From positions 33,814 to 97,813 of the forward strand of contig JAAVCH010000013.1 in the NCBI GenBank assembly GCA_014802425.1: 64,000 bases of DNA, read 5' to 3'. Shown in pieces: positions 45,362-50,998 of the stretch. The number at the start of each line of letters is the position of its first letter. The first letter of the stretch is position 1. The notes under the pieces are model-generated. The model was not told the DNA's origin. It searched no databases and saw only the letters and a list, made by a program, of their open reading frames with translations. The translations under genes were made by a program, and so were the position numbers. The stretch comes from Bacteroides sp. (GTDB lineage Bacteria; Bacteroidota; Bacteroidia; Bacteroidales; Muribaculaceae).

Positions 45362-46387
45362 TTATTTCATTGTCACTCCGGAGCCTTCCACGACACGGCC
45401 GATGACCGATGCCTTTTCTCCGGCCTCTGTGAGGATTCCGATGGTGCGCTCCACGTCTTCGGGGGCCACAGCGAGAACCATGCCTATGCCCATGTTGAAG
45501 ATGTTGAACATCTCGCGGTGCGGAATCCTGCCGTACTTCTCAAGCATGCGGAACACGGGGAGTATTTCCCAGCTTCCCTCTTCGACCTCCACGCCCTGGC
45601 CCTCCTTGAGGATACGGGGGATGTTCTCGTCGAATCCGCCTCCGGTGATGTGGGCCAGACCATGCACATCCACCTCGGAGAGGACCTTGAGGATGGGCTT
45701 GACATAAATCCTGGTCGGAGTCAGGAGCATCTCGCCCAGAGTCTGGGGAGCTGTCTCGGGGAGTGTGTCGGAATAGCTGAGGGAGTTGTCGCTCACGATC
45801 TTGCGCACGAGGCTGAATCCGTTGCTGTGGACTCCGCTGGAGGCGATGCCGACGAGCACGTCGCCGACGCTGACCTTCGAGCAGTCGATTAGCTTGGATT
45901 TCTCTACCGCGCCCACCGTGAATCCGGCTATGTCGTACTCGTCTTCGTCGTACATGCCGGGCATCTCGGCGGTCTCGCCGCCCACCAGGGCGCATCCTGC
46001 CTGACGGCACCCTTCGGCCACTCCGGCCACGATGGCCTCCACGACTTCGGGATGGTTCTTGCCGACGGCCACATAGTCAAGGAATACGAGCGGCTCGGCG
46101 CCCTGCGCGAGAACATCGTTGACGCACATAGCCACGGCGTCGATGCCGATGGTGTCGTGGATTCCGCTGGCGAAGGCTATCTTGAGCTTGGTGCCCACGC
46201 CGTCGGTGCCGCTCACCAGGACGGGGTGCTCGTAGCCTAAGGATCCAAGGTCGAACATGCCGCCGAAGCTGCCGATGTTACCCATCGAGCCGCGACGCTC
46301 CGTAGACTTGACATGCTTCTTGATACGGCTTACTACTTCGTATCCGGCTTCCAGGTTGACCCCGGACTCTTCATAAGATTTAGCCAT
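45362..46387 (-). CDS. purM: phosphoribosylformylglycinamidine cyclo-ligase (AIR synthetase)
   Basis: Closes the imidazole ring: FGAM to AIR with ATP. The 341-residue protein has [11 protein letters not shown] at the N-terminus, [13 protein letters not shown] near 60, [24 protein letters not shown] near 87 (the family signature), [11 protein letters not shown] near 136 and [14 protein letters not shown] near 228. It sits between purL, which makes its substrate, and purH. Confidence 0.97.
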
Positions 46388-46408: not shown

Positions 46409-49400
46409 TTAGTTTTTCTTAAAGTATTTCACGGCGTTGGCGAAGAGGTTCTGGTTCTTGTCGCCGTGGATGTTCTTCATCAGCCCTTCGGCGTAACGCT
46501 CGGAGTGGCCCATCTTTCCCAGCACGAGTCCGTCGGGGCTTATGATACCCTCGATGGCGAATGTGGAGCCATTGGGATTGGCCGGCGAGGTCATTGTGGC
46601 GTGCCCTTCGGCGTCGGCATACTGGAATGCTATCTGGCCGGCCTTCAGGAGGTTCTCGGCCATCTCTTCCGAGCATGTGAACTTACCCTCGCCGTGCGAG
46701 GCGGCGATGCTGTGGAGCTGGCCGATGCGGAAGCCGTCGAGCCAGGGGGAGGCAAGCGTGCCGACACGTGTCTCCACGATCTGGGAGATGTGGCGGTTGA
46801 TGTCGTTATGGAAGAGCGTGGGTGATTCCGAGGAGAGTTCACCGATTTTGCCGTAAGGCAGGAGTCCGCTCTTCACCAGGGCCTGGAAACCGTTGCAGAT
46901 ACCGATCACGAGTCCCTTGCGGGCAAGCAGGCGCTCGATGGCGCCTTTCACCTTGTCGTTCATAAGCACGGATGCGATGAACTTTCCGCTGCCGTCCGGC
47001 TCGTCGCCCTCGGAGAAGCCGCCGCTTATGGCGAGGATATGGCAGTTGTCGATGCCTGCCACCATCTCTTCCACGGAGGACGTGATGTCGTCGGCCGAGA
47101 GGTTGCGGAACACCCTGTACGCGCATTCGGCCCCCTCACGGGTGAAGGCCTTGATCATGTCGTAGTCGCAGTTGGTGCCCGGGAATACGGGGAGGTACAC
47201 GCGGGGATGCTCCGTCGGCTCGCCGGGCCAGTGGCCGGTGAAGGCCGGGCCGGTGGCGTCGGGCGCGTCGCCGGTCACTCCCGACCGGTCGGGATACACT
47301 TCACGGAATTTGGCCTGATTGGCTTTCTCCAGTTCGAAGATGTCCATCTTCTCGCCGTTCACTTCGAGCACGGCTTCGCCTACAGTGCGTCCGATCTCCA
47401 CAAAGCCCGGGAGATCGATCTTCTCGCGGCTTTCCACAAGAATCGAGCCATAGCTCAGGTCAAACAGGCGGTTCTCATCCACCTTCACTTCCGCGCCCAC
47501 GGCATTGCCGAAGCTCATCTTAGCCAGGGCCTCGGCCATGGAGCCCGCGCCGAGGGCGTAGGCTGCCACTATGCTGCCGTCGGCTATAAGCCGCTCGACG
47601 TTCTCGAAATTGGCGGTAAGCTGTGCGGTGTCCGGGAATCGGTCGGCACGCGGGGTGTGCTCGACGAGATAGAGATAGTCGCCCCCCTGCTTGAATTCGG
47701 GCGAGATGACGCGGCGTGCGTCGACGGCGCCCACTCCGAAGGCTATCAGAGTCGGGGGCACATTGATGTCGGCGAATGTGCCGCTCATGGAGTCCTTGCC
47801 GCCGATCGACGGAAGACCGAACTCCACCTGCATTCGAAGTGTGCCGAGCAATGCGGCCAGGGGCTTGCCCCATGCCAGTTCGGATGCCATTTTCTCGAAG
47901 TATTCCTGATAGGAGAAACGCATCGTCTTATGGCGCTGACCTGCGGCCACGGCCTTCGCTATGGCCTCCACCACGGCGTAGGCTGCGCCGTGGTACGGGC
48001 TCCAGGCCGAGATTTCGGGATTGAAGCCGAAAGCCATGAGGGAGGCCGTGTGGGTGGTGCGGTTGCCCACGGGGAGCTTCTGCACACTGACCTGAGTCTC
48101 TGTGGCCTGACGGCGTCCGCCGAAAGGCATGAGTACCGTAGAGGCGCCGATCGAGGAGTCGAACATCTCGATCAGACCCTTCTGCGAAGTGACGTTGGGC
48201 TGCGCCAGCACGGTCTTGAACTTTTCCGTCAGCGTCGAGCCGGCGGGAGTCCTTACGAACGGCGCGGCGTCGAAGTCGACGGCCCCCACTACGGCGCTTG
48301 CGTAATGCGGCGCGCCGGCCGAGTCGATGAAGTCGCGGCGGAGGTCGGCCGCGAGCTCACCCTTGTAGTACATGCGCATACGGGCCGTGTCGGTGACATC
48401 GGCCACATGGGTCACCTCAAGGTTCTCTTCGGCGCAGTATCTTTCAAATTCCTCACGGTCCTTGGGATCGATCACCACGCTCATGCGCTCCTGTGATTCG
48501 GAGATGGCGAGTTCGGTGGGATTAAGTCCGGAGTATTTAGTCGGCACACGGTCAAGGTAGATGTCGAGTCCGTCGGTAAGCTCACCGATGGCCACGCTGA
48601 CACCTCCGGCGCCGAAGTCATTGGATTTCTTGATAAGGCGTGTCACCTCGGGGCGACGGAAGAGGCGGGCGATCTTACGCTCTTCGGGAGCGTTGCCCTT
48701 CTGCACCTCCGAGCCGCATTCCTCAAGCGAAGCGGTGGTGTGCTCCTTCGACGAGCCCGTGGCTCCGCCGATGCCGTCGCGGCCGGTGCGGCCGCCGAAC
48801 ATGAGGATGATGTCTCCCGGCACGGGGCTCTCGCGGCGCACATCGGAGGCCTTAACGGCTCCTACTACGGCGCCGACTTCAAGACGCTTGGCCACGTAGT
48901 CGGGGTGGTAGACCTCACGCACGTGTGTGGTGGCCAGGCCGATCTGGTTGCCGTAAGAGGAATATCCCGAGGCCGCCCTCTGGGTGATGACGCGCTGGGC
49001 GAGCTTACCCGGCATGGTCTCCCCTACGGGCTGCCATATGTTGCCGGCGCCGGTGACGCGCATTGCCTGATAGACATAGCTACGGCCGCTCAGCGGGTCG
49101 CGGATGGCTCCGCCCAGACAGGTGGACGCACCGCCGAAGGGCTCGATTTCCGTAGGATGGTTGTGGGTCTCGTTCTTGAACTGCAGGAGCCAGCGTTCAG
49201 TCTCACCGTCGACGTCGACGTCCACATAGACAGAGCATGCGTTGTTCTCCTCGCTCTGCTCCATGTCGTCGAGCAGGCCCTGTTTCTTGAGATAGCGCGC
49301 GCCGATTGTGGCGAGGTCCATCAGGCAGAGGCTTTTCTCATCCCTGCCGAGTTCATGGCGGATTTCGTGCCACTGCTTCACGGCATCGCGTATGTCGTCG

Positions 49401-50131
49401 GCCACGGGGGCATCCTCCACACGGATATCGGTAAGGTTGGTGGTGAAGGTCGTGTGGCGGCAGTGGTCGCTCCAGTATGTGTCAAGAATCCGGAGTTCCG
49501 TCTCGTTGGGGTCGCGGCCTTCTGTACGGAAGTATTCCACTACCTCCATAAGGTCGTCGGCATTCATGGCCAGCCCCTTTCCTTTGCAGTATGCGGCCGC
49601 ATCGGCCGGGGTGATTTCCCGGAATCCGGCGAGTGTCTCCACGGGAGAGGCCTGGGCCTTTTCCACGGGAGCCAGCCGCGTGAGGTCCTTGCGGCGGGAT
49701 TCCACGGGATTGATGCAGTAGCGGGCTATCTTCTCAAGGTCCTCCCCGCTCACGGAGTCATCGAAAATCATGAGGCGGGCGGAGCGTATCTCCACATCTG
49801 CCTCCGGGTCGAGAAGCTTCACGCACTCTTCGGCAGAAGCCGCGCGCTGGTCAAACTGGCCGGGAAGATACTCCATGGCCAGGAAGGGATGCCCCTCGTA
49901 TTCCGTCTCGAAGTCGGGAGCGAAAGCCACCTTGTCCGTGGCAGGCTCTCCGAATACTCGGTAGGAGCTTTTCTCGATGAGCTCGGGAGTGAACCCGAAT
50001 AGGTCATAGACACAGACCAGACGGAGGTCCTTGATGTCGAGGCCGAGGTTGCCATTAAGTTCGCGACGCAGACTGTCGGCCTCTATACGGTAAGGCTCGG
50101 TCTTCTCGACGAAAATTCGGTTCTTGTTCAT
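46409..50131 (-). CDS. purL: phosphoribosylformylglycinamidine synthase, large single-chain form
   Basis: Makes FGAM from FGAR, glutamine and ATP. At 1240 residues this is the long form that joins PurS-like, PurL and PurQ parts in one chain. Visible parts: the N-terminal PurS-like region; TYWSDHCRHTTF near 204 and FKNETHNHPTEIEPFGGASTCLGGAIRD near 320 (synthetase domain); GKDSMSGTF near 775; and the C-terminal amidotransferase with GICNGFQALVKSG near 1085 (nucleophile Cys) and a triad His/Glu near the end. So no separate purS or purQ is needed. Confidence 0.96.
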   Translation of the reverse strand: MNKNRIFVEKTEPYRIEADSLRRELNGNLGLDIKDLRLVCVYDLFGFTPELIEKSSYRVFGEPATDKVAFAPDFETEYEGHPFLAMEYLPGQFDQRAASAEECVKLLDPEADVEIRSARLMIFDDSVSGEDLEKIARYCINPVESRRKDLTRLAPVEKAQASPVETLAGFREITPADAAAYCKGKGLAMNADDLMEVVEYFRTEGRDPNETELRILDTYWSDHCRHTTFTTNLTDIRVEDAPVADDIRDAVKQWHEIRHELGRDEKSLCLMDLATIGARYLKKQGLLDDMEQSEENNACSVYVDVDVDGETERWLLQFKNETHNHPTEIEPFGGASTCLGGAIRDPLSGRSYVYQAMRVTGAGNIWQPVGETMPGKLAQRVITQRAASGYSSYGNQIGLATTHVREVYHPDYVAKRLEVGAVVGAVKASDVRRESPVPGDIILMFGGRTGRDGIGGATGSSKEHTTASLEECGSEVQKGNAPEERKIARLFRRPEVTRLIKKSNDFGAGGVSVAIGELTDGLDIYLDRVPTKYSGLNPTELAISESQERMSVVIDPKDREEFERYCAEENLEVTHVADVTDTARMRMYYKGELAADLRRDFIDSAGAPHYASAVVGAVDFDAAPFVRTPAGSTLTEKFKTVLAQPNVTSQKGLIEMFDSSIGASTVLMPFGGRRQATETQVSVQKLPVGNRTTHTASLMAFGFNPEISAWSPYHGAAYAVVEAIAKAVAAGQRHKTMRFSYQEYFEKMASELAWGKPLAALLGTLRMQVEFGLPSIGGKDSMSGTFADINVPPTLIAFGVGAVDARRVISPEFKQGGDYLYLVEHTPRADRFPDTAQLTANFENVERLIADGSIVAAYALGAGSMAEALAKMSFGNAVGAEVKVDENRLFDLSYGSILVESREKIDLPGFVEIGRTVGEAVLEVNGEKMDIFELEKANQAKFREVYPDRSGVTGDAPDATGPAFTGHWPGEPTEHPRVYLPVFPGTNCDYDMIKAFTREGAECAYRVFRNLSADDITSSVEEMVAGIDNCHILAISGGFSEGDEPDGSGKFIASVLMNDKVKGAIERLLARKGLVIGICNGFQALVKSGLLPYGKIGELSSESPTLFHNDINRHISQIVETRVGTLASPWLDGFRIGQLHSIAASHGEGKFTCSEEMAENLLKAGQIAFQYADAEGHATMTSPANPNGSTFAIEGIISPDGLVLGKMGHSERYAEGLMKNIHGDKNQNLFANAVKYFKKN

Positions 50132-50191: not shown

Positions 50192-50659
50192 TCAGTCGTT
50201 GGCGGCGAGCACCTTCTCAGCCTGGCGTTTACGGAAATCGGCGAGTTTGCCGGCGAGCGAGGCGTCAGTGACGGCCATTATCTCCACGGCAAGGAGGGCG
50301 GCGTTCTTGGCGCCGTCGATGGCCACCGTGGCCACAGGTATTCCGGAGGGCATCTGCACCATCGAGAGAAGCGAATCGAGTCCCTCAAGCGAACGTGATT
50401 TCACAGGCACCCCGATGACGGGAAGCGTGGTGAACGCCGCCACGACTCCGGCGAGATGGGCCGCACCCCCTGCGGCCGCGATTACGGCTGCGAATCCGCG
50501 CTCGCGCAATTCGCTCACCCATGCCTCAAGGGCAGCCGGTGTGCGGTGAGCCGAATAAATCTTCACCTCATGCTCTACGCCAAACTCCCGAAGCACCTCG
50601 GAAGCGCCGTCCATCACGGGGCGGTCGCTGGCGGAACCCATAACTATTCCTACTTTCAT
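50192..50659 (-). CDS. purE: N5-CAIR mutase, PurE
   Basis: Moves the carboxyl group from N5-CAIR to give CAIR. The 155-residue protein has [21 protein letters not shown] at the N-terminus, YSAHRTP near 40 with the catalytic His, [26 protein letters not shown] near 60, and [19 protein letters not shown] near 106. It reads like class I PurE, which normally works with PurK; purK is not in the window. It is the first gene of the pur operon, ~300 bases after the promoter, with a terminator between. Confidence 0.96.
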
Positions 50660-50756: not shown

Positions 50757-50800
50757 AAGAAAAAAGCTGTGGCCGTACAGACTGTATCTGTACGACCACA
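50757..50800 (-). terminator. intrinsic terminator in the pur operon leader
   Basis: On the minus strand TGTGGTCGTACAGA and TCTGTACGGCCACA (50800-50787 and 50781-50768) make a 14-bp stem with one G:U and a 5-base loop, followed after two bases by six T and then CTTTT. It lies between the only consensus promoter and purE, so it must be read through or relieved for the operon to be made. Confidence 0.85.
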
Positions 50801-50809
50801 CTGATTCTT

Positions 50810-50956
50810 TCAAGTCGCCGCATAGGCACACCCACATCCGCACATTTCCCCGCACACCCGCTTACGCGGGCGTTCGCCCGGGCGAGCCGACGCCTGTCGG
50901 CACCCGTATATGAGATCTGCTGAATGCATACGTACTATGGCGGCTGACTGTCTCAT
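50810..50956 (-). CDS. possible 48-residue leader peptide before purE
   Basis: ATG at 50956 lies ~8 bases after the predicted transcription start and opens MRQSAAIVRMHSADLIYG, ending in GEMCGCGCAYAAT with TGA at 50810, ten bases before the terminator stem. Its position suits a leader peptide whose translation could alter folding of the leader, but it overlaps the RNA hairpins and its arginine/cysteine-rich second half looks like chance coding over a structured RNA. I favour the RNA reading. Confidence 0.2.
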   Translation of the reverse strand: MRQSAAIVRMHSADLIYGCRQASARPGERPRKRVCGEMCGCGCAYAAT

Positions 50957-50967
50957 GCTGGATTCTG

Positions 50968-50998
50968 CAAAGTTAGCAATTTTTTTCCACTTTGCCAA
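50968..50998 (-). promoter_or_regulatory. promoter of the pur operon / leader RNA
   Basis: On the minus strand TTGG (50995-50998), exactly 19 bases, TAACTTTG (50968-50975). No other TAnnTTTG match is found between here and purE. Confidence 0.75.

Follow-up and report, generated by a model that had tools for sequence, protein, structure and literature searches.

Purine operons are best known for control by repressors or riboswitches, and the purE-purL-purM operon studied here raises the question of what kind of element lies between its promoter and its first gene. The window, that is, the whole stretch of DNA that was analysed, covers 64,000 nucleotides. A sequence-only reading of it had described the purE leader as a structured RNA ending in a terminator, either a new purine-sensing attenuator or a separate small RNA such as 6S RNA. 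The analysis reported here points to a pyrBI-type transcription attenuator coupled to translation, a reading to which a probability of roughly 0.78 can be given from comparisons of sequence.

Promoter, Leader ORF, and Terminator

The promoter is of the Bacteroidota type and lies on the minus strand, with 20 nt between its -33 and -7 elements and an RNA start predicted at about 50961-50965 (-). As the sequence-only reading had stated, it is the sole consensus promoter about 300 bases from purE: the distance is ~310 nt, and TAnnTTTG occurs a single time in the 600 nt before the gene. The full intrinsic terminator that had been announced is also present, as a 15-pair hairpin (50800-50768) with a U tract after it. 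The main features are as follows.

50996..50998, minus strand: promoter -33 element, TTG (from the sequence; the consensus is general knowledge of Bacteroidota promoters)
50968..50975, minus strand: promoter -7 element, TAACTTTG, which is also found ahead of the purE leader at most loci of the genus
50810..50956, minus strand: leader ORF of 48 codons, MRQSAAIVRMHSADLIYGCRQASARPGERPRKRVCGEMCGCGCAYAAT, stop TGA; the stop-at-terminator layout is kept in relatives
50768..50800, minus strand: intrinsic terminator hairpin of 15 pairs (from the fold), with its U tract at 50767-50756
50192..50659, minus strand: purE, the first gene past the terminator (TIGR01162)
46409..50131, minus strand: purL (FGAM synthase), the second gene (TIGR01857)
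45362..46387, minus strand: purM, the third gene (TIGR00878)

The central feature was missed by the sequence-only reading: promoter and terminator are separated by an open reading frame, which was misread as non-coding. It runs from the ATG at 50956, just past the promoter, to the TGA at 50810, spans the entire "structured RNA", and leaves 9 nt between its stop and the terminator hairpin, beyond which purE, purL, and purM follow.

Conservation of the Layout in Relatives

The regions upstream of purE were compared in about 80 genomes of the same genus having the same PurE type. The genus probably belongs to the Muribaculaceae (Bacteroidales), identical loci being found in metagenome-assembled genomes (MAGs) labelled Muribaculaceae and Porphyromonadaceae; the comparators are probably mostly MAGs, and the species are not independent. 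When the leader was searched by nucleotide BLAST in 60 genomes, almost all matches fell on the promoter, the rest of the DNA being hardly conserved. The order promoter, terminator, purE is found in about 50 relatives, with the stop codon of a leader ORF at the terminator; the terminators are kept, with altered stem sequences. Counting as qualifying those ORFs that begin with ATG near the promoter, have at least 25 codons, and end between -8 and +12 nt from the terminator base, a leader ORF was found at 39 of the 53 loci having both promoter and terminator (28 of 42 when redundancy is removed), against 3.4±1.9, with a maximum of 9, in dinucleotide shuffles. The gaps between stop and terminator mostly range from about -6 to +12 nt, and the ORFs are 3 to ~80 codons long. 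At several loci of the genus, the layout is absent or no assignment could be made.

Some same-genus loci carry ORFs of only 3-13 codons that end at or in the terminator (e.g., MKK*, MKGK*, and MKRASIKTP*). In the minimal leaders L147, L160, L164, L166, and L177, the ATG is close to the predicted RNA start. Such short leaders leave little room for a ribosome behind the polymerase, and possibly work in a different mode.

Outside the genus, MAGs of Alistipes and Tidjanibacter have similar purE leaders. In Alistipes L048 and L051, two candidate leader ORFs overlap upstream of purE; one of them is broken in L048, and the other, of 65 codons, is intact in both. Another type of PurE, ~50% identical, mostly comes without the leader layout. 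It is found in other genera of the family and in some species of the genus (L191-L200, L202-L229). From these distributions, the leader appears to travel with its purE lineage, and the split of PurE types among genera and within the genus suggests replacement or transfer of the purE operon.

The Leader Peptide

In three families of leader ORFs, each of one length (45, 29, and 56 codons), the frame is kept open, whereas most of the alternative frames are interrupted by stops. Their pN/pS ratios are 0.66, 0.61, and 0.92, respectively: the peptides drift under weak constraint. The leader peptide composition is near that of shuffled nucleotides, the comparison with shuffles reveals no regulatory codon run, and searches of six leader peptides with Pfam and NCBIfam gave nothing above the cut-off. 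These results bear on an alternative in which a metabolite, or the scarcity of an aminoacyl-tRNA, would cause the nascent peptide or specific codons to stall the ribosome at the terminator. By eye, basic residues and a Cys followed by Gly or Ala do turn up repeatedly in the C-terminal part of several families as well as of the Alistipes peptides, and Lys and Arg slightly exceed their frequency in shuffles (z 6.9 and 2.9, respectively). Nevertheless, with pN/pS between 0.6 and 0.9, a near-random composition, a weak Cys excess (z 2.9), and leader ORFs of as few as 3 codons, control by the peptide or its codons is unlikely.

RNA Folding

The minimum-energy fold of the leader (50966-50755) reaches -97.7 kcal/mol (z = -5.7), and none of 200 shuffles folded as well. 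Much of this value is supplied by the terminator, as z is -2.4 without it. The other folded elements all lie on the minus strand.

50935..50949, minus strand: closing stem, 5' strand, inside the ORF (from the fold)
50813..50825, minus strand: closing stem, 3' strand, in the final ORF codons (from the fold)
50879..50906, minus strand: inner hairpin 1, not general in relatives (from the fold)
50851..50876, minus strand: inner hairpin 2, with a GUAA (GNRA) loop, not general in relatives (from the fold)

The bulged 12-bp closing stem described by the sequence-only reading is present, as 13 bp with two single-base bulges, but it is not a conserved structure. Its 5' and 3' strands are no more complementary when taken from one species than when taken from different species (p=0.24); covariation across relatives does not support the stem, and its conservation was rejected. 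Three compact hairpins had likewise been listed, one of them with a GNRA loop; the GUAA hairpin is there, but the minimum-energy fold holds only two together, the third, GGGCGAACGCCC, overlapping the GNRA hairpin. Conserved inner folding was also rejected, as the leaders of the relatives have a mean z of -1.3 (terminator apart), with many near 0. Finally, no antiterminator was detected: nothing upstream pairs with the 5' arm of the terminator better than chance (mean z +0.34; 0 of 35 below -2). The RNA, thus, has no visible alternative state, which leaves the ribosome to decide termination.

A new class of riboswitch, in which the closing stem and the inner hairpins would form an aptamer controlling the terminator, could account for the better-than-shuffled folding of the window's leader, both with and without the terminator. 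It could also account for a nucleotide element common to the relatives, NACATATC, which contains an ATA codon and to which some of them add GGATAT..GATAACCGAA upstream. However, searches with Rfam at gathering and permissive thresholds (E up to 5 in the window) gave nothing credible in the window or in 20 relatives, in agreement with the sequence-only reading, which recognised no known riboswitch class. As the inner folds are not general, no antiterminator is seen, the closing stem does not covary, and the ORF layout lies far above chance, a riboswitch is very unlikely here. The presence of ATA, an Ile codon, in the shared element suggests that the RNA rather than the peptide is constrained at this position. 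In L112-L120, L126, and L183, the ATG has GGATAT..GATAACCGAA upstream and (C)GAAACACATATC downstream. A search for a wider regulon using the shared element CAGTCGAAACACATATC found exact copies at purE only.

A 6S RNA or another separate small RNA, with purE expressed in another way, would fit a ~200-nt transcript having a closing stem and its own terminator, all the more as the Rfam models find no 6S RNA elsewhere in the genome. However, the leader has a coding layout and no general fold, is conserved within the genus no further than the promoter, and gave no hit with the RF00013 or 6S-Flavo models; nor does the window contain another TAnnTTTG promoter ahead of purE. The layout, the promoter-only conservation, and the lack of a general fold also speak against the conserved non-coding rod with a central bubble that is expected of 6S RNA. 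The 6S models (RF00013 and RF01685) detected no 6S RNA in the nearly complete source genome, so that they are a weak test of the leader. Bacteroides has a 6S RNA (PMC7366714), and the models may be insensitive for this family. Taken as a whole, the evidence makes this the least probable of the readings, and an extremely improbable one. The earlier proposal of a pur attenuator is well supported by the layout of promoter, leader ORF, terminator, and purE seen in about 50 relatives; a metabolite-binding RNA is not supported.

Proposed Mechanism

In the proposed attenuator, transcription would begin just 5' of the short leader ORF, the stop codon of which lies at the base of the intrinsic terminator. 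A ribosome following closely behind RNA polymerase would cover the 5' arm of the terminator, the hairpin would not form, and the pur genes would be transcribed. If the polymerase were ahead of the ribosome, the hairpin would form and transcription would stop, leaving a leader RNA of ~200 nt. We infer that the leader ORF is translated and that the ribosome blocks the hairpin in the source organism. The least certain part is the signal, which might be a shortage of ATP or GTP that slows RNA polymerase. Coupling between transcription and translation is, to our knowledge, not established in Bacteroidales, and this counts against the attenuator reading.

Measurements in E. coli provide a scale for such an occlusion. 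Translation of the upstream ORF lowers the efficiency of a terminator placed 5 bp past a stop codon from ~90% to <10%, and the effect is lost, with full termination, at >27 nt from the stop (PMC4824070). The pyrBI-type reading is favoured because the gaps of the purE leaders fall within this measured range. Several features expected of this type were found, namely a terminator between promoter and gene, a stop codon at occlusion distance, a peptide whose sequence is unimportant, and no antiterminator.

Comparison with Known Systems

E. coli pyrBI, with its UTP-sensing leader gene pyrL, similarly has a leader ORF that overlaps or adjoins an intrinsic terminator, ahead of a nucleotide-biosynthesis operon (PMC4824070, PMC3641672); the pyrBI terminator sits within its own leader gene (PMC4824070). 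In pyrBI, the position of the ribosome decides termination (PMC4824070, PMC3641672), which is a proposal for the purE leader. In contrast with pyrBI, the purE leaders belong to a purine operon of Bacteroidales and vary freely in ORF length and peptide, without a clear pause tract. ATP sensing by a leader ORF whose peptide is not conserved has a precedent in Salmonella mgtM, in the mgtCBR leader; this ORF is also short, and its reading of ATP has been proposed to occur via transcription-translation coupling (PMC3641672). However, mgtM uses alternative stem-loops and is on at high ATP, whereas the purE leader shows no alternative stem and the opposite sign would be expected.

Attenuators of the trp/his type, which respond to amino acids, also place a leader ORF and an intrinsic terminator before a biosynthetic operon, but the purE leaders lack their regulatory codon run and their antiterminator. 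The purine, PRPP, and ZTP riboswitches of pur genes likewise act through premature termination, whereas the purE leader has no Rfam match and no shared aptamer fold. Searching the open-licence literature, no paper on a purE leader-ORF attenuator in Bacteroidota was found. The transcriptome of B. thetaiotaomicron contains small ORFs in long 5' UTRs that are reminiscent of leader peptides and are unvalidated (PMC7366714).

A Possible Purine Signal and the pyrC Leader

Over the 30 nt before the terminator, the purine fraction is 0.614 in the pur leaders, vs 0.557 at same-genus gene-end terminators (p=0.0009) and 0.510 in pyrC leaders (p=0.0004), a small effect that was found on looking, among species that are not independent. 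The pur leaders show no enrichment of long purine runs (longest 7.40 vs 7.46+-0.26), which leaves no clear purine-specific pause site. An ATP-sensing leader of the mgtM type would be expected to have a conserved adenine stretch in its ORF; the longest A run in the leader ORFs is not above that of shuffles. The A fraction is 0.45-0.55 directly before the stop; over 30 nt, it is not above that of gene-end terminators. The slightly purine-rich stretch before the terminator is a hint of ATP/GTP sensing, and purine sensing by the pur leader is plausible, at odds close to even or a little below.

In the same gene cluster, the adjacent pyrC operon carries a leader of the same kind, with a promoter, ORF, and terminator of its own (58455-58304, minus strand) and the following features.

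58446-58360, minus strand: pyrC leader ORF, MKWGRRTSVPLLLIRPETTDLITQFETP
58349-58305, minus strand: pyrC leader terminator

Several relatives have a U-rich tract directly ahead of the pyrC terminator, as UTP sensing would predict. A tentative proposal, for which the chances are judged somewhat short of even, is that polymerase speed, read by a ribosome on a throw-away ORF, would report ATP/GTP shortage to the purE operon, beside a pyrBI-like UTP attenuator on pyrC.

Implications

The purE leader serves as a warning that a well-folded leader RNA may be an ORF in disguise. A ribosome-occlusion attenuator on a pur operon would also make it testable whether ribosomes track RNA polymerase closely in Bacteroidota. 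If the proposal is true, it would provide evidence for coupled transcription and translation in Bacteroidales, and one simple device would serve both nucleotide branches, purine and pyrimidine, in a lineage of gut Bacteroidales.
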